Below, piece by piece: positions 841 to 57,299 of a stretch of 64,000 bases of DNA. Each line of letters opens with the position of its first letter. Within the stretch, counting starts at the first letter, position 1. Under the pieces are notes generated by a model. It did no database searches and was not told the origin of the DNA. It saw nothing but the letters and a program-made list of their open reading frames with translations. The DNA lies in NCBI GenBank assembly GCA_019055375.1, contig JAHQIW010003978.1, positions 434,001 through 498,000 of the forward strand, read 5' to 3'. The position numbers were made by a program, and so were the translations under genes. The stretch comes from Parelaphostrongylus tenuis (taxonomy: Eukaryota; Nematoda; Chromadorea; Rhabditida; Metastrongylidae).

Positions 841-980
841 CTAAAACCTTTGTCCTGCAACTTTTACCTGTAGTAAAGGCTTCTTGTCAACACACTGTGA
901 CCCAATGAGAGAATAGGAGATCACTAAATGATGCAGCTTCAAACTAATCTTTTGTCGCGATTTTTATATGAATAAACTAG

Positions 981-3900
981 GTGGAAGTGGGAGAATTCCT
1001 TGAAGAGTTCATACGGTATTTGCAGTTATGAACGGCCACTATGGTTCGAAAAGAATCCGAAACCAGATCGAAACGCACTGTACTACGGCCAAGATACTTT
1101 AATTGGGAGACCTGTTTGGTTTGACTGGTTAGTTTACGCTGTTAGAGTTCATCTCATTATTGAACCACTGTTGTTTTCCAGTGTTGCAGCTGAATACGAA
1201 GCATGCAGGGAACGAGTAGCATTGGTCGACATGAGCAGTTTCACAAAGTTTGACATAACGGTTAGTTGCTTGCAGAGTCGATACCTTTTGTCGCAAAAAG
1301 TGATAGCAAATAGGTAGCCCTGGTAGTACTTTGGTTAGCAGGTTACCGCGCGTCCCCGGCAGAGGTGGAACGCTCATTGAACTTCCAGCCAGGGTTCAAA
1401 GTTCTGCATATCATCTCACGATGTTTTGAGCTTTTCATGTTGTGCATGTCGTCAACAATGCTAGATATGATGATGGGCCTTCGTTGGGATCACCTGGCAT
1501 CTTTCAATTCCTATTTACTTTAGGGACGTGACAGCGTCAAGTTTCTGCAGTACCTTTGCTCAGCTAACATCGACAGACCGATTGGGACTACAGTATACAC
1601 GGGAATGCAGCACGAACGTGGTGGATATGTGACTGATTGTACTCTGAGTAGGCTTTCGGAAACTAAGTAAGCGAAGTGTTAAGCATCAAATCTTTTGAGA
1701 ATTTATGTGAAAATTTCTCTTTTTACAGGTTCTTCATGATTGCTCCTACAATCCAGCAGGAGCGTTGTATTTCTTGGATGAAACATTGGTCTAAAAAGAT
1801 GGACGTGAATGTTCATATTCAGGTGATTTTTGATTTGAGTGTAGTTGGAATGGTTGATGGCCCAGCGTAGAACTCTTCGGTGGTTTGTTTCATTCGTATG
1901 AGATTATACTCTGCTATTTGCTCAAAATAGGCAAAAAAGAATGGTCGTGATTCCACGATCCGGAGCGATTGTAGATTTGCTCTACCTAATTGATGATTTT
2001 TTCGAACCATAGTTCACTTTTTACTTTAAAGGTGGTTATGCAAAGCTAAGTCCTTCTTAATATTAGAATAAACTAGATGTCGCTGTTTCAGGATGTAACA
2101 GGCATGTATACGGCACTAGATGTAGTGGGTCCATCTTCCCGTTACTTGATGTCAGATATTACCGAGATGTCCATGAGTGCTCAAGATTTCCCTACTTTCA
2201 ACTGCAAAGTAAGCCGTCTCTTCTTGCTGTTATGTTCGCAGCTTTATTGCATGTATCTAGGAAATAAGCATTGGCATGGCTACCGGTATTCGTGCAATCA
2301 GTATTACCCACTGTGGAGAACTAGGCTGGGTAATATACATACCAAATGAGGTCGATTTTATGTCAAGAAATATTTCCTCACACCAGCTTTGTTCCGTACT
2401 TTGGCAATCGATTTCTCAATTTAGGTGGCTCAAAATGTTTATGAACGAGTAGTTGACGCTGGCAAAGAGTATAGCCTACTTCATGCTGGCTATTACACGT
2501 TACGTCAGTTGCGAATCGAAAAATTCTACGTGTATTGGGGTCAAGACATCAACGCCACCGTGACTCCCGTGGAATGTGGACGATCGTTCCGAGTCGATTT
2601 CAAGGTATTACATTGGAAGTAATCCTTGTCAATAACGAAAGGTGTCAAGGTAACTTGAGAAAAGGCTTTAAGTAAACACAAGATTGATTTTGTGAATTCA
2701 ATTTCACGTTCTCATGCCTTGTTGACAACAAAGCGGTGTATCATGACAGTATTATTGTTCTATCTGGAGCGTTATGATCTGATCTGGAAAGATAGCATTC
2801 GCATTTATTTGATTACAGGCGTATGAGTATGACGGGTTACGGCATGTATGTTGGGTTTTCTTCACCAATACTTGACTGTGCGCGTATGGAACGGTAGAGG
2901 TGCCCCACGAAGCTCACAGGGTCAATGGTTCCATCCCGCGTCCAGCGCTCGCAGTCTCCTAACCTTTTGGGGTCTGTGAATTGATACCAGACTTGTCTGA
3001 TAGAATAGGAGCAGTGATTTGATACATCGGTAGGTCACCGCAAGTCATTATTAAGGCCAAATGTGCATCCAATCACCCCCTGACGATGCTCGACGAAGTC
3101 GAATGCACGGCGCATCCTTCAGCAACTGGTCAACATCGAGAGCTTCAGGAGAGCTTTCATATCTGATTAGTAATCGCTTCGTCTCGATCCACCGGTATTT
3201 TCGTTCGACATTTGAATTTGGTCGATTAAGCCCCAATCAAGGACTTCCTGCTTACTTATGAAGTAATTCATATCCGACTGTGGTCCCACTATCCTTTAGT
3301 CTTTACCACGGCTTTATTTATTGAATTTATGTACAATTACTTATCTTTTATATTCAATCAACCGATATTATTCGTAATATAGTGTGCTAATTTTGAATAA
3401 CATATAAATGTGCTTTCTCAACTGACCGTTTTGACTTCAGAAGAACTTCATCGGTAAAGAAGCGCTGGAGAAGCAGATAGAACGAGGTGTATCAAGAAGA
3501 TTTGTTCAATTACTTGTCGACAAACACAACATGGACATAGACCCATGGCCACAGGGAGGAGAACTGGTGTTCAGGTATGCATTGAGTTAGTTATTCATAG
3601 AGTTATGTAGTGGAGGAGTACATTTATCTCCAATTTATGAGACAGACACACTGACGACCACATTATCAGTGTATATATTTCATCGGTACCACATCTTGTA
3701 ACACAAGTAAATCTGTGATGTCGCTGATTATTGCATAGATTTAACGAATGACAAACCTCTATTCGCTCTTGCTGCGCGTGCGAGCGGCTCAGTGGGTTGA
3801 ATCCGTCTAAGAGACAGGAATATTACCTTAATTTTGATAAGAAGCTCTTTTTCATTTGTTTTTCGTTATGACTAACCACAAGTAGTTAACCATTTTTTAC

Positions 3901-12840: not shown

Positions 12841-13019
12841 GTTCATTGATCCACTACAAATTTTGTGGTTTAGTTCTAAATCTTAGCTGAGTACAGTAGG
12901 AATTACTCTAAAGGAGCATGGTCTATTAGAATCCAACAAAAATTGAGGAAGTAAACCACGCGATGCTTATGCATTTTAACGTGCCGCGTGATGTCAAAGT
13001 GTTTACCTCTTCATATGCG

Positions 13020-13760
13020 ATAATCACATAACATGCTTTGAGCCTTTTGTGAGGTCTTGTAGGGCATTTATACAGTACTAGAGGGCTCGTTTCAACCTTA
13101 GGCTCATCAGTGGACTGTTTTTTTGGTTCAGCCAGTCCCTTGGGGATATGTCCCTACTCAGTGCAATCGACGCTGAATAATGAATCACCACAAGTCAGGT
13201 GATAAATCTCCCGACATTGTAGTGACTAACGGCCCAGATCGTGGCTTTTGAAATAAATCTTACCTCTGCATACGACTGATTTTATAGACCTCGCACAAAA
13301 CCATAATAATCTGGTAATAACATAACATGTTCTGAGCCTTTCGTGAGGTCTGCCGGGGCACTTATAAATTACCAGACGGGCCCGCTTCGCCGGCAGGCTC
13401 ATCAGTAACACAGTGCCTTTTGGTTCAATCCCTTGGGAGATACACCCCAACTTCTAGAGCAATCATAGAGAGCAATCTCGCACCCACTGACAAGCCTGCA
13501 AAGGCGGAACGGTATGATTCATTTTACCAGTTACGAGCTCGACTGTTGTCACTGCAATGTCGGAGGATTTGCCACCTAACTTGCGGTGATCTAATATTCA
13601 GTGTCGATACTTTATAAGTGGATGTATTTTCCAAGGGATCGGCTAAAACGAAAAGCACTGTGCTACTCATGAACCCTCCAAGGCGAAACGGGCCCGTTTA
13701 GTACTGTATAAGTGCCCAATCAGACCTCATAAAATGCTCGTATATATAATGTCATCATCA
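13020..13760. mobile_element. Decayed hammerhead-bearing inverted-repeat elements
   Basis: Two left-end-like blocks (13060-13140 and 13330-13450) face one right-end-like block (13630-13750). All carry the same terminal sequence (GCACTTATA...CAGTACT-like), a hammerhead-like segment and the GGTTCAGCCGATCCCTTGG-like motif. Minus-strand CUGAUGA cores lie at 13104-13110 and 13399-13405; the plus-strand copy at 13666 has CUCAUGA. Internal sequence (GAATCACCACAAGTCAGG; CGAGCTCGACTGTTG) matches the element at 24358-24832. It looks like one element plus part of another, both old. Confidence 0.65.
13349..13412 (-). ncRNA. Hammerhead-like ribozyme motif, slightly mutated
   Basis: Minus strand: CUGAUGA, stem II GCC-UGCC-GGC, GAA, then G where A15.1 is expected, and a palindromic GCGGGCCCGU as stem III. 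Stem I pairs only through G-U wobbles. Activity is doubtful. Confidence 0.45.
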
Positions 13761-13889
13761 GACGATTATTCTTTTTGAACGAGGTCTTCGTATGCTCGGC
13801 TAACAAAGAGGCTTTACTACCCTCCTGTCAATTAGTAAAGAAACTCGTACAATAAACCATTTTTCTTGCAAGCTGTATAGGGAGTGCCA

Positions 13890-19661: not shown

Positions 19662-22600
19662 GTTTTCGCGATCTCCTTTCGCCATCTGCATGGCGCGTTG
19701 ATAGTAGTCGACAGTGGCGGCAACATGACCGTGTCGTCGGTTTCGCTCGTTCATCACTATGTCGATTCCTCGTCGCACATGTACTCCGACGTAGTACAAG
19801 TCATCCGACACTTGAATATTTTAGATTGTTTTAAAATGGCTTCTAAAGAAGGGAAGACCATCTATAAAGTACGTTCCTATCGGACATATTTTAGTTTTAA
19901 CATACGAAAAGAAACTATTCTCTATTAGACATCAAATGTACGTCATCTTGGGAATGGATGTAACTGGTCAATGTTGTTGTAAAAGAGTATTTACTCTGAA
20001 ATCCCTAGTGTTTTTATTGCTTTTTTTCGCAGTGTTATGATGGTACATATATACCTAAGATAACCGAGTGGTGAGCAAAAACACGGCCCCATGCGGGAAT
20101 CGAACCCGCGCTTCATCCAAAAAGAGTATTTAGTTTTCTTATAGAAGAAAACTCTCCTTAACGTTAAAATTCTTTTTTCTTCATTTTAGTGTCAAATGGC
20201 TTTTCTTTAGATTACTATATTTTCTCTTGCATTTTTTCGCTGCTCTCTTGATATGTCACGTTTTAAGCGCATTTGCAACTACATGTATGGATATCAATGC
20301 ATACTGAGAATGGGTCTCTCAAAAGGCAAGAACTTATTCAAATATAATTTTTAGGTTAACCAATATTTCTGGTGCAACTGCGCATTCAAGGATTGCAAAG
20401 ATCGCAGGATTTAGATCTCAAATTCTCCTACGATGGAAGATAAGTTTGTGAGCATCGCACTGCTTTTTACATCGTGGTTCCATTTTTCGGTAGGGTCATC
20501 CAAGATGAGGAGTCTTCACCCTTAAGCTTAGCTTGGTGTGAATCATTGAGTATGAATTAATTTTAAAGTCCGCAGACTTGACCCAAATGTTGGCCAATGA
20601 TACGCTATGTCAAAAGTGATGTCTGAAAACTTCACTACCTTTTCGGAACTCGGATCACCTTAATATGACAATTTCTCTTTTGAAATTACCCATTTGAAAT
20701 TAACGTTCCAAACACTTACATGCACCTGGTTCCATTTCGAGTGCTTCGTCTCCGGGCTTGGCGTTCTTATTGAATAGAGGTCGCGCACGCTCTACTGCTC
20801 TCCTTGCCACCAAACTATTGAGAAAAGTTAGTGCCTGGAAAGCTGTTGATCAGTTTACCCACTAATTAGGTCACCTCATTCACTTCATGTGTTCACCACT
20901 TTTACATCAATATTCCGATTTTCAATTTACTGTTTCTTCTTCAATATTTCACTTTTCCATAAACATCAAGGAGTATGTTAGAAAAAGTTCTAAAAAATCT
21001 TATACATAAGAATAAAAACATAAAGAAGCCTGACATAGCCATCGAGGCTGCTAGAAGGCACTGTCCATGAAAACTGTTTGTTTGGAAGCAATGAAAAGCG
21101 TACAACAACAGCAACAGCCTATTTCTTTACCTTTTCGAGCCGAGACTTCATTGCTCTGATATAATAATTTCTTTGTAGCGAAATGACTACCTTTTGCTGA
21201 ATAGGTTGCAAAAAAGTGAATTCTTTGCGAATTAGGGCCTCATTAGTTGGAACAAAGTATCGCGGATTTTGTAAATATCCAATAATTGCACTGATCCGTT
21301 CTTTGGATCTGCTCGGAATCTTCGAAAATGAGCAGCAGCTCTGAAAATTGAACGAAGATCACCAGACAAAGTTCTGAAAGCTACGATGAAAGCTCCAGAA
21401 ATAAAAGCAGAGCTAAAGTAAATTGAGGCGGAAATCACTACATAGCTGAGAAAAAACCCGCAGTTTTTCGTGCTTGCTAACTACATGTGGTTCATTTTTG
21501 TCACATCTAAAATTGTGAATTAACGGACCGTAATTTCGACGGTTGAGTTTGATGCAATTTTGAGCAATTGCTTAACGACTTTGTCGGTTGCGAAAACAGC
21601 ATCCAAGTCGAAAGCTCGCCTAAATTGTTCCTCTTATGAAATTCAATTTCGGCGTTTTGTTTACTGGTCAATTTTATTTTAACAATAGGATACGCGTAAA
21701 CTTCAACCACAAGGATGGTGCGATATGAGCAACATTTGGAATTTGATGCTTTTTGTGTTAAAAACTTGGAGCTACCCCGAAAAGCTATAGTGGCGGTTCA
21801 AGTTCATAACACCAAAAAGATCATGTTTCTGACCTTGCTCGAATCCCAGCATTCTTGTGGTAGTATTTACTCTTGAATTTGTCTCCATATTCCGACCGTT
21901 TTGAGGGGATATTTTCGTTTTTTTTTTCTTGAATCGAAGAAATTGATTAGAGAAGAGTGAAGAGATCTCAATGCGAATCCTATCAGATTAATTGATTGGT
22001 GTGAAAATTTGTACTGGCACCTTAAAGTGTTGGAGACTGGTACAACCAAAATGGATTGACGAGCTTCGGCAATACTTCGCAGGGATGCGTATTGAAACAT
22101 CAAATTGCCAAGCCCTGAAAGCAATTTGATCACGCATAGCAACAGTAGAATAATAGATATCATGAAGCGCTCAGCTAGGATCAACCCCAGCGAGACGTGT
22201 GGCGCATTCGCCTCCGTTCGTTGCATTATGGAGGTAATTGAAAACATAGTTCATCTATATAATGATTCCAATAGGTCTGCCAATCTACTAAGTCAATTAT
22301 TTTATCCTTCAAAACAAGTTTTACAAAAAGCTTACAATCCGAGACGGATTTATAACCTGGTAAGCTGAGGCGTGGGATCGAACTAATGACCGATTCACTG
22401 TGACCTTCAGGAATACTCCCACTGTATTACGCATATCTATTTTCCCAGGTGAATTATGGCTTGAGAATGCTATAAAGAGATACTGTTAAGTCAAATAAGC
22501 TGGAGTTTTGGCAAAAATGTTCAGCGCTCTATGCAGTTCTGATAATATCATATCGTCTATGAAAAAAACTGAGCTCATTCTTGCTAGCAGTTCATTCATC

Positions 22601-23750: not shown

Positions 23751-24357
23751 ATGCTTTACGAGTATAAGTTGGAGACCAGTGTAAGGAAGACAGTTGAGAA
23801 GATCAAAACTGTGCGTGGAGCAGGTACTACCACGTAAGCTACTGTTTCATGCGCTTCGACGATAGATACCTCATTCACTGACCCACTACGAATGATCTGA
23901 TGCTTGACCGTCTGTGAAAGTCTTCTGGTCGACCGCATAGGCAACACTTTCTCAAGTCGATCATCACTGGAGATGAGTTCAGATTTACTACAAGAACAAC
24001 ACGCGCATCATCGACTGGCTTGGCGGAAAAATCCCGCCAGCTCAACCAATGCCCGAGTTTCTTGCTTGGGAAATTATGCTCTCGGTTTTCTGACAATGGC
24101 AGGGTATTCTGCCTTGGAAACTGCGTAACAATAAGCAGTGAATCAATGCCGACGGCTGCGGAAAATAATTTCTGGAGTTGGCTGCAGACTTTCGTTTTCA
24201 CATTGCAAACTCAGCTCGCTAATTTTGGCGAAATTAGGCCAAAGTACCACGTCCATCGCATTTCCCTGATATTTCTCCATTGGATTATAATTTCCTTTTC
24301 ACTATGAAGCAGTATCTACGGGAGAAAAAATTTAAGAGCTACGACCAACTCAAAAGT
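23751..24357 (+). pseudogene. Mariner transposase relic, first part
   Basis: The frame opens with MLYEYKLETS, the typical mariner N terminus, and later reads FLKSIITGDEFRF, the first catalytic-Asp block. Frames shift several times. It reaches ISPLDYNF (equivalent of APSDYHLF) and ends at DQLKS, where another element interrupts it. The rest lies at 24833-24980. Confidence 0.75.
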
Positions 24358-24832
24358 AGCTCATCATTTGACCGCTTTCATAGACCTCGCTCAAAAACAG
24401 TATTAATCTGATAACATGACATCATGTTTTGAGACTTCTAGAAGGTCTGATATGGCACTTATACAGTACTGTATAGGCCTGTTACGCCTTTGTAAGCCCA
24501 TTAGAAGTAGGGTGCCTTTCTGTTCAGCCGGTCCCTTGCAGGGGGATATACCATTACATCAGAAACAGTCGAATAAAGAGGCGTGAATCATCTCACCAGA
24601 CGAGCTCAACTGTTGCTCACTGCAATCTTGGGGAATTTAACCGCCTGACTTGAGGTAATTTTTTAATTCGGCGCCGATTCCATCATAAGTAGGGGCATAA
24701 CCCCCTGTAAAGGATCGGCTGAACCGAAAAGCAGCGTACTATTGATGAGCTTGGAAAGGGGAAACAGGCCTATTTATTACTGTGCATGTGCCATACTAGA
24801 CCTCATAAAAAGCTCAAAATACGTTATCGTAT
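24358..24832. mobile_element. Hammerhead-bearing element inserted in a mariner relic
   Basis: A 475-bp insertion interrupts the transposase frame and is flanked by direct copies of CAACTCAAAAGT (24346-24357 and 24833-24844), a 12-bp target duplication. Its halves contain inverted hammerhead-like blocks: a decayed minus-strand copy near 24460-24510 and a plus-strand UUGAUGA...GAAAC copy at 24735-24785. The GGTTCAGCCGATCCC-like motif lies inside each. No protein is encoded. Confidence 0.8.
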
Positions 24833-24980
24833 CAACTCAAAAGTGACATCACCGACTTCTTTTATCGTAAGCCTCATTCTCTCGAAGAGGAAGGCATCCA
24901 ATCTCTGCCTAACTAATGAATGCATATCACTTATCAAGATGGCGATTATAATGTTGGTCGATTGATTTCTTCAAATAAAA
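24833..24980 (+). pseudogene. Mariner transposase relic, second part
   Basis: Continues in frame from 24357 once one duplicated copy is removed: QLKSDITDFFYRKP, then EEEGIQSLPN, matching the C terminus of mariner transposases. This continuity is what dates and delimits the insertion between the two parts. Confidence 0.75.
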
Positions 24981-25702: not shown

Positions 25703-26100
25703 TTTTGCAAATTCGAGTTAATTAGAAAGCGTTGTCGTTATAACATTAGACGATTTCTTTCTTATCATTAATTTAAACCTCTTTGAAACGGTAGCCATTT
25801 TCGATTTCAACTGTTGGGCGGTTCAAACGGCTACGACCATCGGTGTGGCCTACGCTTGAATGAAAATATGGGAGTTTTGTAATGAAGGCAGAGTATCAGC
25901 GAAGGAACTTCATCACCCTTTTTAGTTACGTCAATGCGTCTTAGCGTTTTTCATATGGATAACCACATGTCTGCGAAAAGGACAATTTCTTCCAACTCTT
26001 ACTGAACGCTTTCATGTAATTATACGTATAATTATTCATGCCTCTACTTTATTTATCTTTAATTTCTTATAAGGATATACATATTTTGAGCCATAGGTCT

Positions 26101-26150
26101 AGTGCTATATAGGCGCCTATTTCGTCCTATTGGGACTCATCAGTAGCACC
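26101..26150 (-). ncRNA. Hammerhead ribozyme, intact consensus
   Basis: Minus strand, identical to the copy at 26446-26495. CUGAUGA core at 26143-26137, stem II GUCC/GGAC with a five-base loop, GAA, stem III from the palindrome AUAGGCGCCUAU, cleavage base A (26108), and a seven-pair stem I closed by 26150-26144 with 26107-26101. Confidence 0.88.
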
Positions 26151-26445
26151 CTCCTTCGGTTCCGTCGATCCCTTGAGGTGAAACAATCCTCCAAAGGATA
26201 GCCATAGGTCTAGTGCTATATAGGCTCAAAATATGTATATCCTTATCAGATTAAATCATTTTGAGCGGGTCTGTAAAAAAGCAGTCGATAGCAGAAGTAT
26301 AGTTCATTTTAAAAGCCGTAAGCACGACTGCCGGTCACCACAAAGTCAGGTAATAACATCATCCTACTTTGGGTGCTTAATTTTACTCGGCGTCGGTTCC
26401 TTTGGAGGATTGTTTCACCTCAAGGGATCGACGGAACCGAGGGAG

Positions 26446-26495
26446 GGTGCTACTGATGAGTCCCAATAGGACGAAATAGGCGCCTATATAGCACT
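26446..26495 (+). ncRNA. Hammerhead ribozyme, intact consensus
   Basis: Stem I pairs 26446-26452 with 26489-26495 (seven pairs, one G-U). CUGAUGA is 26453-26459. Stem II pairs GUCC with GGAC around CAAUA (26460-26472). GAA is 26473-26475. Stem III is the loopless palindrome 26476-26487. The predicted cut follows A26488. All invariant core bases of the family are present. Confidence 0.9.
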
Positions 26496-26639
26496 AGACC
26501 TATGGCTCAAAATATGTATATCCTTATCAGATTAAATCATTTTGAGCGGGTCTGTAAGAAAACAGTCGATAGCAGAAGTATAGTTCATTTTAATTTCTTA
26601 TTTCAACAGCAATTCACCTTCAGATACTACAGCCAATCA

Positions 26640-27070
26640 ATGGCAAATAAATGATACAGTGGTGAGCAAAATTACGACCTCAGACGGGAGTCGAATTCGC
26701 GTTTCATCCATATTGGGTACGCGTGCTACCACTACACCACCGAGGTAGATTCGCGCCACCACTCATTCTTCAACATCTCTATGTTAGCTGTCAGCTACCA
26801 ACCTTTAACAGGGTTAGTCGGGTATGCGATTCCGCTTTAAAAGCCCAGTTGAGCTGACAGCCTTTGTGATAACTAATAGTCAAAATCTCTAGTGTTTTAT
26901 TGCTTTCTTGCAGTGTTATTGCAGTGTTATGATGTTTCATATGTACCTAAGAGAATTGAGTGGTGAACAAAAATACCTTGAATCACGAATGTACCTCGGT
27001 GGTGTAGTGGTAGCACGAAGTCGTATTTTTGCTCAACACTCAACTCTCCTAGGCATGTATGAAACATTAT
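26640..27070. repeat. tRNA-like foldback element
   Basis: Minus strand 26655-26760 reads GGTGGTGTAGTGGTAGCACG (A box) and ATTCGACTCCCGTC (B box). From 26930 to 27070 a second inverted pair shares GTTATGATGTTTCATATGTA and GAGTGGTGA(G/A)CAAAAATAC with their complements, around GTGTAGTGGTAGCACG in plus orientation. Several related copies lie elsewhere (20020, 46815, 59185). Confidence 0.6.
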
Positions 27071-27315
27071 AACATTGCGAAAAAACAGTAAAAACACTAG
27101 AAACATCGAGTAGTCAACATATACTTCACAAATAAAGTATTATGATGTAAATCTTTCTTTTTTATACTGTCTCATTCCATAAAATACCCAGAAATTATCA
27201 TAATGATTGAAAATTACAAAACAATGAACAGACTTAAGAAGGACACAGCACGCTGCATGCGATATCACTTTATCAATAACTCTTAATAGTTTTTCGACCT
27301 AGTGCTATTCAGAAG

Positions 27316-27639: not shown

Positions 27640-30340
27640 TTTTTTTGTTAGGTGGCTTATTTCACTGCATCGTTTATTTTGAAATATTCATAGCTGATGT
27701 ATGTTAGATAGAATCAATACGTATGCGTTCCTAATGGATTCTGTGCGAGAATGGACAATCATATCTAAGAAATAAAAAGCAGTGCACCCTCTCTCTTTTA
27801 TCATTATATCTGATAATTATTATTTGGGCTAACATGTCGTGGTGGCATGTTTGCATGCAATGTTTTATCTGTTTCAAGATACCAGGTTTTACTCAAACTT
27901 TCAAATTTACACGTCTGTACTTCTCAGACGACCAATGATTGACACCTCGACAATGCCTTTGATTAGTTGCTATACCAGGTTCACAAAGTATGGTGATTGC
28001 ACATTTGCTACAAGATAATACTAGCCAAATGTATACTTTAGGTTATGTACATTCTAACGGCTTGTAAAACAAAATTCTGTCATTCAGCTTGGGAAAATGA
28101 TTTTAACACATGTATTTTGGGCGAATTTGAGCTCATCAGAAAGCTTTTTTGTTGTGCATCGAACATTGTATCATGTGACTAGACAGACTTCAGAATGGCA
28201 CTGTCTAAGGAAGAATTTCTTCTGCTGCTCACCCCCACTTCAATTTTGGTGTAAGCGCTTCTCAGGTTAATCGACAAATCTGCAAGGCGTGTAGTGCGAG
28301 TATCCACCGCATAGCGCGAACTTGGCACCGAGTGACTACCGCTAATTTTGTTCAATAGAGCTCTTTCTGAGAGTCAAGAAGTCCCAAAATGTCCCCGAAA
28401 TTAGCAAAATCTTCGCACTTTCTCCAAATTGAGATATTGCAAGTCTAACCGCCGCAGAACCTTTCTGCTGTCGGACATGCGACTGAATTGTCTTGATGTG
28501 GAAGAGGACTACTTCAACTAACAATTTATCTTTTGTTTGAGCTTAATTGGTGCACAAATAAATTTTCCTGTGCATTTTGAAAATACCACAGAACTTTTCA
28601 ACAACCTGTTAGAAAGATGTTCGTTTTATTATGCAAATGTACATAGTATAGCATTGTAGGCATTGAAAAACTGTCAGAAGCGACTGCAGATCCTCTATCG
28701 CAATTGTAATGTGCGTATTATAATAAAAAATTGTGGTAAATTAGTGCAGAAAGACCAGTCCATCTCAGACTAATGTGGACTGCTAGTCGCAGAAGCTCTA
28801 TGGTGAGATATGCTAAGATAAATACTTTGAGTAAAAGGTTTTGAGCATGAAAAAAATGCAAAATTAGATTGCGCACTTTCTTCAAGGACGGTCACGAGGT
28901 GATCGATTGGGCAGATTGCGAGTCATTTCTTTCTTTCAGACTTTCTTTTACAAGAATGTGTAATAGCAGTTGAAAATGTGTCCAAAATATTGTCCTCCTA
29001 TCAGAAATACCAATTTTTGAGACGCATGGGTAATTCTATTACTAAACACATCTATACATTAATGTTTTCGGTGATAGCCATCTTTTCATGACGATGAAGT
29101 GCTGCCATCATCCAAAATTCATTGTTCAACTGCCAGCTAAGAGTTCTAAAAACAGGCTAACTACACGAAAAAATTGGTGAGATTTTCTTCGTTTTGGTAC
29201 AGGACACAAAGAAAGTTTTTCCAGAAACCATGCTGTCCACTAAAATCTTTGTTTCTTAAGCTACTGAATGAATACTAGTAGTCTAGTGAAATAGCTGGAA
29301 GTACTAGACTGACGATTATAAGAAGCAGAAATTCCATGCTAAGTTGACGCGCTGACCGAGTATGAACTAAGGTGAATTATTATTGATCGATGTTGATTGT
29401 ATAAGTTGTTGATTGCTGAATTTTTTAAACAAAAGATTCACAGCATCAGTGAAAGTTCGTGAAGTATGGGCCAGGAACAAATATTTTCTTCGGAGAAGTA
29501 CCCCCACAATGATGACCCCCCCCCCCCTCTTTCTACATTTGCACTAGTAATTCCTATAGATTCTATGATTGGCATTTTACAAGCCATACATTATAAAAAT
29601 TTATGTTTTCAAGTTGCATTCTTACAAGTACACAAACGGCTGGCAAGAAAATGGGGAGTTTTCGGAATGTTAACATGTAAAATTTGAATAGATGCGAAGT
29701 ATTCTGAGTGACTTTTGAATGAGCCACTCAAAATAAGTTTTGGAGCAGTTGAACAGATCAGCATTACTCACTAGCATTGTCCAAAGGTCTTATTTGTTCA
29801 CTTTTTGACTTGAATAATAATGCAAAAAAATTGTGATGTGAATTGTTTTGTTTTCTGAAGCAGTAATCTAATCACACCAACAAGAGGCATAGCATTGAAT
29901 ACCAATTCGGAAAGTCGTGTGCATAGGTTCTTTCGAAAGAAAAGCATGCATGCACGTGTATTATATCGTTAAGTAATCAATTTAAGAGCAAAGAACCGCG
30001 TCTGCTAATACAAAACGAGTTTTCGAACTAATTTACATCTCAAAATTCCGTCTAAATAGGCATTTTATCTTGCAAACTACTTCGAGGTTTGATTGAGAAC
30101 GTTATTTTATGCTAGCGGATGTGGGTGGTCCTTGGCTATAGCATCACTTTATTCTGCAGCTTTGAAAGCTGCAAAATATCATAGTGATCTTTCACTTGTG
30201 AGGTTGAGGTATTGTCCAGGTACTTCGAATATCCCTGAGGCAAATTTAACTTGAACATTGAGATCTCTTCATATTCATGCAGTTTCTTTCATGTGCCTAT
30301 TCTTTTCTAAATCCACACGATAATTTATGAGCTTTCAATA
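27640..30340. other. No gene seen
   Basis: Long AT-rich intergenic region with only short, unremarkable frames. No tRNA, repeat array or recognisable transposon was found by eye. A poly-C run lies at 29516-29527. Confidence 0.4.
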
Positions 30341-32255: not shown

Positions 32256-35200
32256 TCATCTGTATCACCTGTCGTTCCGTTGATCGGCGAGTGACCCACT
32301 CAAGCGGGTACCAGCAACACATCCATTTTTTCCTATCGCTCGGACCAACACGTCGGTGGTCTTCCTGTAGAGCGCTTGATGTACCGAAAAATTCAGTAGG
32401 TAACGGCTCTCGTCCATCGGTTGTCGTTGAAGCACATCACGTGTCCGGCCCACCTTATTTTCGAAATCCTGACGTATAGAACGGTGTCTCTAATTTTCGA
32501 TCGTTGACGTAGGTCTGAATTTCTGATTCTTTCACACATTTGCGAGATACGGATACTCCTAGCATCGACCTTTCGACTGCGCGTTCGATAACGCCAAGTG
32601 ATCTTCCATCCTCCTTACGTAGCAACCATGTTTCTGTTGCATACGTTAGCGCTGGGATAATCGTCGAGTCGAAAAGGTGGGCACGGAGTCGGATGTTCTT
32701 TTGTTCTCTTTACTATATCTTAGATGCTCTTGAACGCTCCCTAAACCGTTCGTTTCCTCCTGCTCTTCTCTGGAGCTAGGTCGTTCATCATGTTGATTTC
32801 ATGACCTAGATAGACGTAACTGGAGCATTCGGAGATTGTTGTTCCGTTGAGCGTGAATGGGGCACTCAAAACCCATCCGTTCCTCATGAACATCGTATTC
32901 GTTAGATTTGGTTAAACACCAATCTTTCCACAGGGTTATCAAAATCGGTCAACATTCGTTGCGCTTGGGTGATGTTTGGCGTTATGAGAACGATATCGTC
33001 AGTAAAGCGAAGATAATTTGATTGTCGACCGTCAATTTCCACTCCCATATCGTCCCATTCTAATGTGCGCATGACGTTTTGTAGTGTGGTAGTGAATAAT
33101 TTTGGCGAAATTGTATCGCCTTGTCGGACCAGACTTCTTATGCCAATGGTGATATTGCTGTAGAATGGAGATATTTTGGTCATGAATTTTTATGAAGCTC
33201 ACAAAGGATCATTATCTATAAGCCTCTATCTTCTGTTCTCACTGAATGAAAAGCTTTCTTCAGATCGATTAAAGTGAGACAGAGTGATTGTTTGCACTCC
33301 CGTGAAACTTCAATAAGTCTTGTAATCGTGTGGATGTGGTCTATGGTACTAAATCCTTTTGGGAACCCTGCTTGTTCGCATGGCTGTCCTTCATCCAGTG
33401 TTCTGTCAATCCTGTTTAGGATTACTCAAGTAACGAGTTTATAGACAACGGACAGCAAGCAGATTGGGCGATGATTGTCTGTGTTGTAAAGGTCTCCCTT
33501 TTTGAACAACAATACGGTCTTGCTGGTTTTCCATTGAATGGTGACCTTGCATTCTGACAGATAGAGAGTGAAAAACCGAGCCAGGGTGTTAATGAGAACT
33601 GGCGGTAGATTCTTCGGGTGATCTGGTTCATTCCTGTCTTGAGCGGGTGTTATTCTGTTCTTCACCGACGAATAGCATGTCGAATTTTCGAAGGAAGGAC
33701 CGCTGGAGAGACATATTCATCCTCTTTCGATTTCTATGACGGTAAGAGGAGATGGCTAGCGAAGAGATCCTAGAAGTACTGGTGGATGATTTTCTCCATA
33801 GCCCTTCTGGAAGCTGTTAGTGTTCCGTCAGGGTATCGCAGTGCATTCATCTTGGCCTTATAATTGCCAAAGCTCGCTGGGCTCTGCGAATGCTCTTCGC
33901 AGCTTCTGCAGTCTCTGCCATAACAGCTGTTCGTCTCTTCTTAAGGCCTTCTTTTATCGCTTTTCTGCAGCGTTTCCCAAGTTCGGACGTAAGGTATTGG
34001 TTACTTATAGCCCATGCGATTCCACATTGTCATGTAAGCTCGAGTGTCTGCGAAGACAAGCGTCTCTTCGTGAGCTTAGAACTCTCGACTTTCATAGCGC
34101 TAACGTGAAGATACTCAACGAGCCAATCATATTCTTCGTCAATGTTGTCGACAACGGTATCTTCCCAAGAGCCGACTAATGATTTGAATACATCTCAGTT
34201 TATAGTAGCTCTGGAAACTTCGTTGTTTAAATTTAGCTGCTTTCTCTTTTTCTACAAAAACCGAACGATGCGCGAAGGAGGTGGTGGTTTGATCACGTGT
34301 AGAACTTAGGAACAACAGCGACATCGGTCAGGCAACCTTTGATTTACTAAGACGTGGTCTATTCCGTTATGGTACTCTCCATTGGAAGACTCCTGCGTCC
34401 ATCACTGAGAGTGACGCATTTGGAATTGTGAGTTACCAAGGATGGTTTGGGTCGTCATGATGAACTCAGATAGTCTCTCATCCTGTTCATTCCATTCTAG
34501 TCTGTGGGTCCTAATGTGACGTTCTTCGGACGTTCTTCTAGGTCCAGTTTTTTGGTTAAAATCTCTGGCATTGACCTTGAAGAATGTATGATCTTTCCTG
34601 AGAAATTTTTCGAGGCCCATATAGAACGCTTCGACTTCGTCTTCGTCATAGCTTGATGTTGGTGCGTAAGCAACGAAGATGGTCAAAGCCGGCATAGAAC
34701 CACATCGTTTTACTCCAATTTTACCGATACGGGTTGTGTTGTTCAAACGAATCTATGTTCACGATGGAATTCGATTTGACGAGGAGCCAACGCCGCCGAC
34801 ACTCTGCTATCGCATGTTCCAAGAAAAAGTTCTTCTCCGGTGTTATAAACAGCGTGAAAAGGATGGCGCCTTCTCGTCTCAGCCAGGCCAGAGACGTCGT
34901 ACCTTTTCCTTCTTGCTCGAATCATTAGATCTTCTGCAGCGGATCAGTGAGCAAGGGTTCTTGCATTGTAGGTACAGGTCGTCATTTTAGTCCGTCTCGA
35001 TCTTGGCAACCTAGTTTGGCCCTGAAATTTTAGCAGCTTCGCCGTACTCGTCCTACCTGGCGCTGCCGTACCAGGGGCTCTTTAGGGGTCAGGAGAATGA
35101 GGCCCCATATTTGTTACTGTTTTTGGCACTTTGATACCCAAAGTATAGCTTGCCAGGCTCTAAACGTGGGGGCTGGGCACTCACGAGTTGCTTGCCAGTC

Positions 35201-41300: not shown

Positions 41301-44300
41301 TAATTTGCTATGACACCAAGCATTAAGCCACGTCCTTCAGCTCACGTCAGTTTTGTGCATTAAACAACTCCGCTGCCTTTCAAGCAAACTGTTCAACGGA
41401 TAGAGCGAGTTTTTCGTTAGATAGACGTCTTTCATATTGATGCTCTGTCGTTACAATATATACGACATTGCTTAGCATGTGTTACTACGGCTTACCATAC
41501 AATCGCATTGTTATCAGTATTTAGAGTGATTTTGAAAATTCTGTTGCCCAACGAGGCTTAGGGAACTCCACGTAATGTTGCCGTTGACACCAGAGCCTCG
41601 ATAAGCTATTGTATAGGAGGGGATTCGGAGGCGCTTAGGTGAGCATTCCTTTACGTTCCATGGGCATTTCATGCGATCAGGACAGAGATTTGCGAGCACG
41701 TGAATATATCTCGTGCTGTAGTATGCCATAAATGTAAATCTTTACTCCATACGCGCACTTGCTATCAAAATACACATTCGGTACTATCAGTTATAAAACA
41801 TTTGAACGACAATCTGAAGACAGACTTTTCTTCAACCTTAGAATTATTACCAGTCATTTATGCATAGTCTTTTTCGATAATGCCAATAGCGCAAAATCAA
41901 TAGAAACAATTTTATTCTACTGGCGCTTCACCATCTTCGTATTCTTCAGAACCGATAATTCGAGCCAATTTATCGCAGCCGTCGTTCGCTCTCGTTTGGG
42001 TCTTCATCTTTGTTGGCGATCGAGTCGAATACTCTTCGATGGGACCGCTTGAACGAAGAACCTCACTCGGCGATGGACGATGTTTTATCATCTGCTCTAC
42101 ACAGGAGCCGATAGACAATCGTTATGAGTGTTTGAATGAACAGTCAGAACACACAGCCTGGGAGAAAGAATGCGCCTTCAACAAAAAATGTGACCGAAAG
42201 ACAGGTAATATAAACATATTGATTCATTACCTTTCCTCTCATCCATGACAAGCCAAACGCACGCTTGAGAAAAGCGTATTTCGGGCAGGTACAGTGTGCA
42301 CACAAAAAGAGAACATAAGGAGGTCACCCAGACTTGGCGCGAAAGATAGCCCTTTTCAGTGGTCACGAAATTGTAGCAGCTGCTTAAGTTAGATTTAAAA
42401 GTTGCTTCCAGACGACAGCACTGGAGAAAATAAGGTCCAGCAAATCTGGCTTTCATTTCCAGCGGAATAAGCACAGCTATCAAACGCTCTTACAGGTTTC
42501 CTAAAATTAGTTTGTAATTGAAACGCTCGTAAGCGTTCTGAGGTGCCATCTGGTCCGTATCCGATTGCATGACCATCTGTGAAGCAAAATTTGCACAGTA
42601 TGCTCTGACGGTAAAAACGGCGATTGCTTGAAACTTGCCATAGATATACCTAATTCTTTCCCAGGCATGCCGAGCCGAATGCAATGCCGAGATATGTAGA
42701 CCATCTAAAACCATAAACAATTTCTGCTTGGAAAAGTGAGAGCCGAACAAAACACTTCCTTAAGTACGCTTAGGAAACAAAAATATAACGAAAACGTTGC
42801 AATGCGGAAGTCAATATCCTTACACAGAAATCCAGAACATCTGCTTGAGAAACTCTTGAAGCTTTTTTGGACAATACTAAAACTTTAATAATGGCTTATA
42901 AGGAGGAGAGTCTAGTAACCATGAGTGATCTCGAACCATCATCTTTATCAATTGTTGCCCCGTTGATCGTCGAGTGACTCGAGCGGGTACCAGCAACACT
43001 CCAATTTTTTCCTATCGCGTGCAAGAGTAGCCTAGTGGGTCCTCTTCGCTTTAGGGATTCGCTGTGCATCATACATTTCTTCTATGCTTTCCGTGAAGAA
43101 ATCGGACCAACGGGTCGGTAAACCCTCTTGTAGAGCGCTTGATATCCCTAGGAATCCACTCGGTAACGGCTCTCGCCCATCGGTTATTGTTGAAGTGCAT
43201 CACTTGTCCGGCCCACCTTATTTTCGATATCCTGAAGTGTAGAACTGCGCCTCTGATCTTCGATTTTTGACATAGGTCGGAACTCCGGATCCTCTCTCTC
43301 ATTTGTGAGATACGGTATATTCCTAGCATCGACCTCTCGACTGCGCGTTCAATGACGTCAAGTAATCTTTATTCTGCTTACGTAGTTACCAGGTTGCTGC
43401 TGCATACGTTAGGGCAGAGATAATCGTCGAGTCGAAAAGGTGGGCACGGAGTCGGATGTTCTTAGTCCACTTCACTACATCTTTGATGCTCTCAAACGCT
43501 CCTCAAGCCGCTTCTTCTCCTGTCCAACTCTGGGCGTAGGTCGCTCATCATATTGATTTCACGACCCACATAGACGTAACTGGAGCATTCGGAGATTTTC
43601 GCTTTGGTGATCATGAATGGGGCATTCAGAACCCATTCGTTCCTCAAGAACATTGTTTTCTTTAGCTTTAGTTGAAGACTAATTTTTCCACAGGCGTTGT
43701 CGAAATCTGTCAACACTCGTTTCGAACCCTCAAACCACACCTCAGGCTAATGTTTTGACTTGGGTTAAGCAGGCTCCCTATGCACCTTCCTACCTTATGC
43801 ACATCTTTATGCGACTTGTGAGTATTTTGCTAAGAAATTAATTGCTAAGCTAACCAAAATTTGTGTATTATGCGACTTTTTTCGGTCTGACGAAAGCATT
43901 TGATTGAGTTGATTGCTGATCATTGAATTTAAATATTCCACGCTTTGAAGAAGGTGATACCGCCAAAACGTCAGCTACTGTATTAATCAAAAGTTCGACT
44001 TTCTAAGCTCGGCATAATTAAATGATATATGAAAATCGAGAAAACTCATCTTGACTATCTGACGGTTGGTAAAGTAGTCCTAGTAATTCGGCTCAGGTTT
44101 CGGCGACCCACCTTCTTCAGGGCCTGGGCCTATGGAGTATACTACAGTATACCCATACGGCAGTATACTACAGTATACTACATACTGTAGATTGCTGCAG
44201 CATAGTGCATACGGTAGGGTACTACAGTATACTACAAATATGCACTTGACATACCAAACCTTGGTTTCAGACCTAGCTAATTTTCATCCAGAAAACATGG

Positions 44301-49204: not shown

Positions 49205-49690
49205 ACACATTCCTTTCATTATTATTTGAGCTAACTTATCATGTGGTCTGCTAGGAGCTCTTGTATGGCCCAATACACGTGTTTCGTCCTTACAAACTCG
49301 TCAGTCGGGCAGAACCCGTCGTCTTTCAATCTTTTTCCGATCAGTTCTCTCGAGAGACTACTCTCCCTACAGAGAGTCATCGAAGACGAACGTTTTACAA
49401 TAATCCCAACCAATAATGGAAGGATCTATCGAAATTTGAACGTGGTCTTAACAAAACACTTGAAATAAAGGCATAATATGATAATATACCAACCAAAAAG
49501 CAATCGAGTGTGCAACACTCTGTGTTAGGTGGAAATTTCACTTGACATAGTGTGTAAAACGTTTCGTCTTCGTAACTTCTTGTAGGGAAACTAGCGCTTC
49601 CAAGAGAACTGATTATAAAAAGATTAGAAGACGACGGGTTCTACCCGACTGACGAGTCTGCGTGCTCTTTACAAACACACTCGAAATAAT
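49205..49690. mobile_element. Repeat element with hammerhead ribozyme
   Basis: Starts with TTTCATTATTATTTGAGC and carries an intact minus-strand ribozyme. A plus-strand block near 49630-49665 (GGGTTCTACCCGACTGACGA) is an inverted partial copy whose catalytic 3' half is lost. The interior (GTGGTCTTAACAAAACACTT and CAATCGAGTGTGCAACACTC) matches the 54.3-54.7 kb element in changed relative orientation. No ORF. Confidence 0.65.
49268..49310 (-). ncRNA. Hammerhead ribozyme, intact consensus
   Basis: Minus strand: stem I GCCCGA (49310-49305) with UUGGGC (49273-49268), CUGACGA (49304-49298), stem II GUUU/GGAC closed by a GUAA tetraloop, GAA (49285-49283), stem III the palindrome ACACGUGU, cleavage base A (49274). 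N7 is C, which the consensus allows. Confidence 0.88.
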
Positions 49691-54290: not shown

Positions 54291-54304
54291 AAACTGTCAA
54301 ATTC

Positions 54305-54590
54305 AAATAGCAATAGATCCTTTCATTATTATTTGAGCCAACATGTCATGTGGTCTGGTAAAGGCTCTTGTACAGCCCGAGACACGTGTTGTCCTTACAG
54401 ACTCATCAGCCGGGCAGAACCCGTCGTCTGTCGATCTTTTCATAGTCAGTTCTCTCGGGAGCGTCACACTCCTTATATATAGTTATCGACGACCTACGCT
54501 TTACACTCTATGTCAGGTGTCTATGTCATTCACCTAACTCAGAGTGTTTTCGCACTCGATTGCTAGCTGGCTGGTATTTTATCTTATTAT
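54305..54590. mobile_element. Second copy of the 49-kb hammerhead element
   Basis: Begins TTTCATTATTATTTGAGCCA. The minus-strand ribozyme block at 54372-54416 has CUGAUGA and a GUC/GAC stem, but two bases are deleted at GAAA, so it is dead. Downstream sequence matches 49480-49560 in inverted orientation. Confidence 0.6.
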
Positions 54591-54749
54591 ACCTTTCCTT
54601 CGAGTGCTTTATTAAGACCCACGCTCAAATTTCAATAGATCCTTTCATTATTATTTGAGCCAACATGTCATGTCATGTTGGCTCAAATAATAATGAAAGG
54701 ATCTATTGAAATTTGAGCGTGGTCTTAATAAAGCACTCGAAGGAAAGGT
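54591..54749. repeat. Near-perfect 159-bp palindrome
   Basis: Arms of about 75 bp are exact inverted copies around 54670 with only a few central unpaired bases (GTCATGTCA). Each arm includes TCAATAGATCCTTTCATTAT and GTCTTAATAAAGCACTCG, the ends of the neighbouring hammerhead element. It looks like two element ends joined head to head. Confidence 0.85.
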
Positions 54750-57180
54750 CAAATAGCAATCTTTGAAAAATGGCGTTTTTCTTGTACGAAAGTCGTCATC
54801 TTCAAAGTCCTATCAAATCCATCATATAAATTGTTTTGTGTATAGAAACATTTAAATAAATAGCGTTTCTAATGCACTTTCAAACGAAAAAATTTTTCGC
54901 ATGTCTTCATTTTTACTATTATTACGGCGAAAAATCGGCGTAGTCATATTTGTACACCTATCAAAACCATCTTATAGTGCTAGACTCAAAGAAAACGACG
55001 TCACAGAGGACAAGTCTGGCGGCAACGAAGTCCCAATCATTCACTCCTTTTTTATCGGAATGAACACAGCTATTGAACATTGCTCAAAAGAAGGGCACGT
55101 TTGAATAATTAGGTAAAAGTGACTAAAATACCCCCAAATTCTCTAAAATCCCAATTGATCCATAACCAAATGTAGGACCTACTCTGCGAAGCAAAAAATC
55201 GCAGATTGCTCCAATGGTAAAGACAGGGATTGTATGAGAACTGGTGCGGTGTACCTATTCTCTAATAAGGCCTGCGAGGAGGGGAAGAATACATTGGCTA
55301 AACGGCTAGACTATTCTGCGTTTGCATAAAAGAGCAACTAATTGGAAGATTTGAAGCCAAACAGGACACTTCAATAGGTATGCACAGGGGAAAAAATTCA
55401 ATAAAAAAGATCTGATGTGAAAACAGTATCTTCGCACTTTAATCCAAAACCTTCTGCGCGAAAAACTCTCAAAGCTTTTTGGATAATACAGAAATTCCAA
55501 AAATGACTACCAGGCAAGTGTTTCCTATCCATGCGTGTCCTCGTTGACATTTAGAGATAATTTTTTCCAACTTGAATGAGGCACATTCCTACCTTGTTCA
55601 GGACCTAGTGCGGCTTGCCTTCAGTGAATAATTGGATGGCTCAAAACAATAGAATGATAAGCGGTGCTCCTTCTTCGAAGATCCTATTCGAATGACAACG
55701 AAAACAGAAACCACAGTGAGAGTGACCAAGTGCGGTAAATGAAAAAAATTCTGGTTTTTAGCTAGAGTCACGAAAGTAAGTGACTGAGTGGATTGCGAAT
55801 CCGTTTGACGTGCTTTGAGCTCCTCTGAAATTAGCAATACATGCAGAAAAAAGTAAAAAATGATAAGAATGATCTCTTCAAGTAGTGCAATGGGATTTGC
55901 GCCGTATGAGGTACGTTGAAATCCTCAGAAATCTGCATTATCTTGCAGGAAAAAAGTGGGAAATGCTATGAATGATCTCTCCAAAATTGTCGGTAGAAGT
56001 AATGTTGAAAGACATCTCATAAATTGTAATTCCACAGGTTTATAAAACCTCAGTGAGGGGCGTGTGGTATTGATGAGACAGGCTAAACCGCTGGAACGTA
56101 CGTATATCACTAACATGTAATATGTAACTTCGAGAAGGCTTCAAGATGTTTGTGGAAGTATATTGAAATTTTATAAAGAGGACATATCGTACACAAGATT
56201 GATCGACAGGTTATCATACTCTTTTGTTCCAATATGTCAATCATTTTTGTACACATTTTTTTTAGATTTTCGAATGGAGTTTTGTGGAAAGTAAAAAAGG
56301 GTGGAAATCTATGATATTACGACTACACGAAGATTAACATTGAGGGTACCTGGTGCGACAAAAAGACTAGAATGCAATTAAGTGATCAGATCGTATTCTA
56401 ATTTACTGCATAATGGGGCAAACCCAATAAGGCCTCTCATCAGATTTCTTTTTTTTTTTCTGATCCAGCAAATGAGCATCATCACGAGCTCTGATGAATG
56501 GGGCCCACTGCGACACAACGTGAGGACAGAGGGACTTTGCCTAATCCTAATTAGTACTCGATTATTATTTTCAATTGAATACAAGATTTTCTGTGAAAAG
56601 CGCATTACACTTTAATTCAATAATGGGATAGATGCCACTCTACAGCTCACCAAACAATTCTACTTATCATTTAATTTTCAGAAAAAAGGCGAAAACAAGA
56701 TTTTTCTATGAAAAGCGCATTATACTTTACTTCAGTATTTAAATGGATGCTACTCGACAGCTCACCAAACAGTCCTACTTATCATTTAATTTTTAGAGAA
56801 AATGCGAAAGCGTTTGAAAACACTTCATTTGGAGCCTATAAATCAATTTCAATATTATAAAACTATTAATCTTACTTTCTAACTTTCATTTGCAGCTCCA
56901 CAAACGTGGAAATTTTTGCTTATTACAACATTTTCAAATAGTACAGCACTGAAATCAGGCTCCGATGGTTGCGCAGATAGACAACAACGACCACTCGCCT
57001 AATTATTCTCTAAAACTTGATTTATTCTAAAACAATGGCTAATCTTCCAGCGATGTCGCCTTGCTGAGATCTAGACGACGTGCCATGTCAAACCATATCT
57101 AATTCTTTTAGCCGATGGTTTCGGCTGGTAGACCAAAACTAATCAATTAAATCGACTGCTTCTAAAACCTCGTAATAAAC
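54750..57180. other. No confident gene
   Basis: Weak minus-strand exon candidates only. One follows a good TAATTTCAG acceptor near 55830 and reads ELKARQTDSQSTQSLTFVTL, then a hydrophobic LPHLVTLTVVSVFVVIRIG. It could be a receptor fragment, but no second helix-bearing exon joins it. A repeated unit (CAGCTCACCAAACA...TTATCATTTAATTTT) occurs at 56645 and 56760. Confidence 0.3.
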
Positions 57181-57237
57181 ATTCACAATAATTCCAAAAA
57201 AAAAGAATGTTTTAGCCTAAACGAGGTTGGTACGCCA

Positions 57238-57285
57238 GGGTCATACACCGGTGTTTCGGAGGTTCGTCCTCCTCGTCAGTGACCC
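57238..57285 (-). ncRNA. Hammerhead ribozyme, intact consensus
   Basis: Minus strand: stem I GGGUCA (57285-57280) with UGACCC (57243-57238), CUGACGA (57279-57273), stem II GGAGG-ACGAA-CCUCC (57272-57258), GAA (57257-57255), stem III the palindrome ACACCGGUGU (57254-57245), cleavage base A (57244). Every helix is perfectly Watson-Crick. No inverted partner was found nearby. Confidence 0.9.
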
Positions 57286-57299
57286 CCGCCCCACATTAA

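Follow-up and report, generated by a model that had tools for sequence, protein, structure and literature searches.

At positions 26058-26601 of the 64-kb window (the whole stretch of Parelaphostrongylus tenuis DNA analysed here), two intact type I hammerhead ribozyme (HHR) motifs face opposite ways on the arms of an inverted repeat (26065-26198 and 26398-26531; 134 nt, 99% complementary, 199 nt apart). Both motifs display the type I hallmarks, i.e. a CUGANGA...GAA core, three stems, a UH cleavage site and an open stem I end. Direct reading of the letters gives core elements CTGATGA and GAA, a stem II of GTCC/GGAC, a stem III formed by the loopless palindrome ATAGGC/GCCTAT, an A at the cleavage position and a stem I of seven pairs, one of them G.U. 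Each copy matches RF00163 with an E-value of 4.3e-05 over 801 bases and of 0.0034 over the whole window, and both are missing from the default Rfam scan because their 29.5 bits do not reach the gathering score of 34. A strict descriptor for this layout, composed only after the motif had been seen, has five matches in the window (core positions 26453+, 26143-, 49304-, 13405- and 57279-), compared with none in 300 simulations of it under a first-order Markov model, both strands included. The permissive Rfam scan (E up to 10) reports three of these five motifs, namely the two copies above and 49268-49310 (27.9 bits). The original prediction that the two inverted arms bear the same complete HHR is thus borne out by profile and descriptor on arms of 134 nt. 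Self-cleavage is predicted from these motifs.

The original prediction was limited to an inverted repeat of 130 bp. Its arms were recovered, but the pair is nested in a larger unit (locus A, Table 1) with flanking direct repeats read as target-site duplications (TSDs), an internal direct repeat and a third, partial HHR. From left to right, this unit consists of a shortened inverted copy, a 26-nt inverted scrap, hairpin-tail, spacer, HHR, hairpin and tail, the order within one unit being spacer, HHR, hairpin, tail. The hairpin-tail recurs as a 90-nt direct repeat (26223-26312 and 26504-26593, 98%) at a spacing of 281 nt, and the direct part of the locus is therefore a partial tandem with a unit of ∼281 nt. 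A tandem non-coding unit of ∼170 to 400 nt with a type I HHR is one mark of metazoan non-LTR retrozymes, and this partial tandem has that form. The longest stop-free stretch within 26223-26588 spans 81 codons when all six frames are considered. The arrangement is head-to-head, since the 3' side of the unit forms both outer ends. The inverted scrap joins the next piece through a 3-bp GCC overlap, as read from the sequence, and the junction piece extends at least 4 nt upstream of the predicted cut site; the template at that point was thus not a ribozyme-cleaved end.

Table 1. Features of the head-to-head hammerhead locus, its relatives and Pfam matches in the window
Feature	Positions	Strand	Remarks
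Locus A	26058-26601		Larger unit enclosing the inverted HHR pair; exact 13-bp direct repeat at its bounds
Putative TSD, left copy	26058-26070		13 bp, TTTAATTTCTTAT; exact match to 26589-26601
Inverted 5'-terminal head-to-head arm	26071-26198	-	Spacer u, HHR, hairpin severed in loop
Intact type I HHR, inverted copy	26102-26149	-	RF00163 Hammerhead_1, 29.5 bits, and descriptor; cut predicted between 26108 and 26107
Third, partial copy at inverted junction	26200-26225	-	HHR 3' half and hairpin start; 100% copy of 26089-26114
First hairpin-tail (h-t) copy of partial tandem	26223-26312	+	98% to 26504-26593
Non-coding spacer (c-u), hairpin-tail to HHR	26313-26446	+	Part related to locus B, 65%
Intact type I HHR, direct copy	26447-26494	+	RF00163, 29.5 bits, and descriptor; cut predicted between 26488 and 26489
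Hairpin h, 3' of ribozyme	26495-26554	+	Loop contains outer end of inverted arm; z-score -3.69
Tail t	26555-26588	+	Present at outer end of direct arm only
Putative TSD, right copy	26589-26601		13 bp; identical to 26058-26070
Locus B	13008-13795		- units at 13405 (passes descriptor) and 13110 (decayed); + unit near 13660 (core G5 changed)
Locus C	24346-24844		Decayed HHR units on both strands; overall orientation opposite to A
Locus D	49211-49662		Intact HHR on - (49268-49310; RF00163, 27.9 bits), truncated HHR on + (about 49640-49662), hairpin-tail copy between
Locus E	54303-54760		Decayed HHR on -; inverted hairpin-tail pair 54585-54755
Locus F	57160-57290	-	Solo intact type I HHR (core 57279), then hairpin (z-score -2.53)
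RVT_1 fragment, LINE-like	32905-33189		Pfam
GCV_T exon (aminomethyltransferase folate-binding domain)	976-1314	+	Pfam

Related loci and the placement of their ends

Self-comparison, sequence reading, alignment and a profile search of the window (in which matches to the ten arms that built the profile occur by construction) identified six loci that carry HHR units. In four of them (A, B, C and D) both strands bear units, locus E combines one HHR unit with an inverted hairpin-tail pair, and locus F is a solo HHR for which no inverted partner was found in the window. Together they contain 11 units, intact or decayed (A-, A+, B-, B-, B+, C-, C+, D-, D+ (truncated), E- and F-), five of which pass the descriptor: both A copies, D, F and the B unit at 13405 (B2, with a weak stem I). 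Intact units on both strands are found in locus A only. The two same-strand units of locus B lie ∼295 nt apart. Decayed units display mismatches together with core changes, such as TTGATGA and CTAATGG in C, CTCATGA in B+ and the loss of two core bases in E, and a hand alignment of eight units revealed that stem I pairs 2 to 5 vary on both sides with pairing mostly kept. The HHR of locus F is absent from the Rfam matches even at E up to 10. With both strands occupied at four of the six loci and an inverted end at a fifth, the inverted arrangement is recurrent and not a one-off rearrangement within the window. A fragment at 27786-27854, which has ∼70% similarity to the locus E hairpin, was excluded from the locus count, and a weak profile match at 58021-58084 (E 0.17) was rejected as another copy.

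The flanks of the five inverted loci (A to E) were each compared with 400 randomly drawn zone pairs matched in size and spacing. Exact direct repeats of 12-13 bp flank three of them, A, C (CAACTCAAAAGT, 12 bp) and E (TCAAATAGCAAT, 12 bp), and a match as long was obtained in only 1, 2 and 1 of the 400 control pairs, respectively. We read these repeats as target-site duplications. At locus B, the longest exact flanking match is 8 (equalled by 53 of 400 controls) and the TSD candidate is imperfect, with one mismatch in 11 bp, while no TSD was found at locus D, where the best flanking match of 7 was equalled by 206 of 400 controls.

The ends of the arms are placed unequally. Alignment of the arms shows that, at loci A, B, C and E (four of the five with inversions), the inverted arm stops on its outer side within the loop of the post-HHR hairpin, beyond which the direct arm continues for about 61, 25, 53 and 42 nt, respectively (hand count on the alignments); the arms of locus D align poorly. 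All four loci have a 5' copy that is inverted and shortened, arranged head-to-head. Their ends, one in the hairpin loop and the other 25-61 nt on, may reflect an optional tail of 30-40 bp at a reverse transcriptase start in a stem-loop; the stability of the hairpin is beyond the shuffle range in two of six folds. The two are those of A (0 of 200 shuffles as stable) and F (z-scores in Table 1); the other four, of which B contributes two and C and E one each, lie within that range. The duplicated targets of A and E are similar to the hairpin sequence past the break (control fractions of 0.008 and 0.002), as if the target had annealed to the RNA there. Such likeness was not seen in C and B (0.78 and 0.42) and, as it holds in two of four loci only, target-to-hairpin similarity was rejected as a general rule.

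On the minus strand of locus E, 54635-54706 gives the best match of the whole permissive Rfam scan, to mir-651 (35.1 bits versus a gathering score of 106). This match corresponds to the hairpin-hairpin junction of the locus, which indicates that foldback elements of such kind can mimic microRNA precursors. All permissive matches to mir-651, mir-129, tmRNA and others were rejected, their scores being under the respective gathering thresholds.

Predicted folding of the ribozymes

Since stem III is a loopless palindrome, a lone ribozyme is expected to close it poorly. Single-strand folds of the HHR regions were not more stable than those of shuffled sequences in any of four tests. When two identical strands were folded together without constraint, the ribozymes of A and F both gave a double hammerhead, with an intermolecular stem III of 12 and 10 bp and a gain of -19.7 and -15.3 kcal/mol, respectively. 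The dimer fold of locus D gains -11.9 kcal/mol and is not a clean double hammerhead. Dimer action has been reported for axolotl retrozymes (PMC7229834) and for the minimal HHRs of Penelope-like elements (PLEs) (PMC7761336).

In the predicted fold of the full locus A transcript, 48 of 48 HHR bases are paired with the opposite arm, whichever strand is transcribed. Taken together, the double hammerhead of same-sense copies and this foldback lock suggest that the tandem form can work and that the inverted one is expected to be silent. The ribozyme would then act as a tandem, in which two same-sense hammerheads pair via their palindromic stem III, while the inverted arrangement would silence the ribozyme in its own read-through transcript. 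It had been proposed that each transcript holds one active and one antisense ribozyme. Folding agrees with the proposed pairing of the arms but not with an active copy, as both are predicted to be locked in the foldback. Considered with the placement of the ends and its likeness to the PLE signature, the inverted pair is probably a by-product of insertion. It need not be a working device, and inversion would predictably silence the ribozyme and yield long double-stranded RNA.

Origin of the inverted arrangement

On the basis of the anatomy, the TSDs, the recurrence, the tandem period, the predicted sequestration and the predicted double hammerhead computed here, we favour, with a probability of roughly 55%, a non-coding, retrozyme-sized retroelement inserted by a PLE target-primed reaction, with a head-to-head product whose inverted form is a by-product. 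Locus A would represent a single insertion of this short element, the ∼281-nt tandem unit comprising hairpin h, tail t, spacer c-u and hammerhead. The target-primed reaction would leave direct copies on the right, a shortened inverted copy on the left and the 13-bp TSD around all. Reverse transcriptase would start inside the post-ribozyme hairpin or a few tens of bases beyond it (the optional tail), so that both outer ends would be located there. The simplest source of two outward-facing ends would be two-sided priming, in which each of the two cut target strands serves as primer on one and the same RNA. Ribozyme cleavage, a circular RNA and a PLE enzyme would all take part in such a scenario. 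Several results weigh against this reading, namely the lack of a PLE gene among the ORFs analysed, the absent TSD of D and the imperfect one of B, a hairpin supported in two of six folds, single-strand HHR folds no better than shuffles, the D dimer, the uncleaved template at the junction of A and the solo state of F.

Several properties of PLEs are in line with this reading. In rotifer Penelope elements, PMC3846280 describes a pLTR-ORF-pLTR with an adjacent inverted pLTR, 37 bp shorter in the example, mostly in head-to-head order and with palindromes at the inverted junctions. In the cases given there, TSDs measure 8-10 bp and a 31-bp tail is optional, and pLTRs can enclose a host gene or, in a few instances, non-coding sequence. 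The pLTRs of PLEs are reported to carry minimal type I HHRs (PMC7761336). The present loci share with the described PLEs (for example Pen2a_Av of Adineta vaga and PAc of Anolis) the head-to-head, inverted and shortened 5' copy, the TSD, partial tandems and an HHR in the repeated flank, and probably also the optional tail and an end at the post-HHR stem-loop. They differ by a unit without coding sequence, by TSDs of 12-13 bp versus 8-10 bp in the cases given, and by a stem III palindrome (8-12 nt) longer than in the minimal PLE motifs of PMC7761336. Pfam analysis of 20 of the 93 open reading frames of at least 80 codons in the window yielded a GCV_T exon and a LINE-like RVT_1 fragment and nothing else, with neither a PLE gene nor a GIY-YIG domain among these 20, and locus A has no ORF with a telomerase-like reverse transcriptase and GIY-YIG endonuclease. 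In keeping with this lack of PLE coding sequence, we do not class the element as a PLE but as one that would have moved like a PLE.

The proposal of two-sided priming for the head-to-head form is drawn from biochemical work (PMC11167929), in which a purified PLE protein cleaves both strands of the target, extends them and begins reverse transcription inside the stem-loop downstream of the HHR, the tail being the stretch between two start sites. In that system, insertion in vitro persists when the HHR is mutated, and the main text uses 'inverted' for blocked primer ends only. As a tentative generalization, head-to-head hammerhead elements might be an ordinary product of two-sided target priming by a PLE-type reverse transcriptase that starts in the post-ribozyme hairpin of the same RNA. 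No statement of two-sided priming as the source of head-to-head forms was found in the literature searched, nor any paper joining Penelope-like elements, inverted orientation and hammerheads. No paper on natural hammerheads in nematodes was found either, in a literature coverage that was partial and on which we base no claim of unpublished status. Searches for relatives gave 0 matches to the motif pattern of locus A in viral and genome contig collections, 0 to the D/E-type pattern in viral contigs and none to 26000-26650 in a phage collection; these results weigh little because the collections consist of viral or prokaryote sequence.

The self-priming that the authors of PMC3846280 prefer would involve the same element and the same PLE enzyme, the inverted arm arising by fold-back of the antisense template. 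They argue for it from the palindromes at inverted junctions, and the junction of locus E does contain a hairpin-hairpin palindrome (54585-54755, 95%). However, the junction of locus A is made of a 3-bp overlap and a rearranged piece with no clean palindrome, and the fact that the inverted arm repeatedly stops in this loop of the hairpin (four of five loci) requires an extra assumption. We consider this route rather doubtful, while giving it more credit than the remaining ones.

The loci also meet retrozymes on many points. Metazoan retrozymes are described as tandem units, about 170-400 nt long, whose TSDs exceed 4 bp (PMC7229834), and the metazoan non-LTR retrozymes of that source share with the present loci a type I HHR capable of dimer action, a non-coding unit in this size range, low G+C, such TSDs and dispersed copies. 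In contrast to the tandem copies described there, where 'inverted' and 'head-to-head' are absent from the main text, most loci here are head-to-head and apparently tail-bearing. PMC7229834 lists LINEs besides PLEs as candidate helpers, and a retrozyme mobilised by a LINE could have been inverted by LINE twin priming. The window contains a degraded LINE with RVT_1 and endonuclease-reverse transcriptase matches (32905-33189, 43072-43368), and the TSD lengths are compatible. Twin priming is known in L1, whose twin-primed insertions likewise combine an inverted 5' part with a TSD around all. Nevertheless, the present loci have no poly(A), nor was any simple-repeat or A-rich 3' end observed, and both of their ends are keyed to one hairpin with an optional tail, which is a habit of PLEs. 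LINE twin priming is thus an unlikely source of the inverted arms.

A distinct class of mobile element, with the ribozyme inside terminal inverted repeats, had been put forward for locus A. The mobile nature of the element and the recurrence of ribozymes on both strands are upheld by the present analysis; the definition of a class by terminal inverted repeats is not. A DNA transposon or MITE-like element would fit the near-perfect arms of A and the several inverted loci, but terminal inverted repeats imply identical, inverted ends, whereas the ends differ here, one arm stopping in the hairpin loop and the other past hairpin and tail. In addition, the 12-13 bp TSDs differ in sequence between loci, the direct hairpin-tail repeat of A marks a tandem unit within its 13-bp TSD, locus B has two - units and one + unit, and F is solo. 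An inverted, shortened 5' pLTR with a TSD and an optional tail has moreover already been described in PLEs (PMC3846280). A transposon of this type is therefore very improbable.

Equally hard to sustain is a retroviroid-like origin, in which the locus would be copied into DNA from a rod-like circular RNA bearing hammerheads in both polarities. Some viroids carry a hammerhead in each polarity, and on each strand of locus A one ribozyme faces its own complement, but the locus contains a same-sense tandem unit of 281 nt, B has same-strand neighbours, F is solo and the truncated inverted arm has a fixed end. Finally, an assembly or amplification artefact, in which inverted chimeras are known to arise, or a chance rearrangement is scarcely credible given three loci with exact TSDs and arms of very different ages (99% identity in A, 74% in C).

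Insertion of a retrozyme-sized element in the manner of a PLE would bear on the mobilisation of retrozymes. In PMC7761336, metazoan non-LTR retrozymes are presented as devoid of a conserved motif that would betray the autonomous element they use, PLEs/Terminons being likely candidates, and PMC7229834 names PLEs as a strong candidate helper. Retrozyme-sized units with PLE-style ends would be a sign of the mobilising enzyme. Besides, because the two outer ends are placed differently, two-sided priming could be tested by counting. If it proves true, these loci would connect the PLE machinery with the helper-less retrozymes of metazoans, and genomic DNA would display the extension of both strands so far seen in vitro with one purified PLE protein.

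Other features of the window

The degraded LINE is present in two copies (32340-32963 and 43102-43724, 81%), with RVT_1 and endonuclease-reverse-transcriptase matches. Its ORF at 43072-43368 has nine protein matches, including two from Parelaphostrongylus tenuis (the better one with 77% over 80% of the query), five from Angiostrongylus cantonensis and one from A. costaricensis, which places the window in a metastrongyloid nematode or a close relative. Downstream of locus A, a tRNA-like sequence on the minus strand (26676-26746; 32.5 bits, just over gathering, with weak D and T arms) is probably a tRNA-derived SINE, of which a 32-bp inverted piece lies at 26986-27017. Another imperfect palindrome, with arms of 81 nt (26896-26976 and 27023-27103, 77%), is related to 19999-20085. 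A 115-bp tandem duplication (two copies, 84%) occupies 56577-56809.
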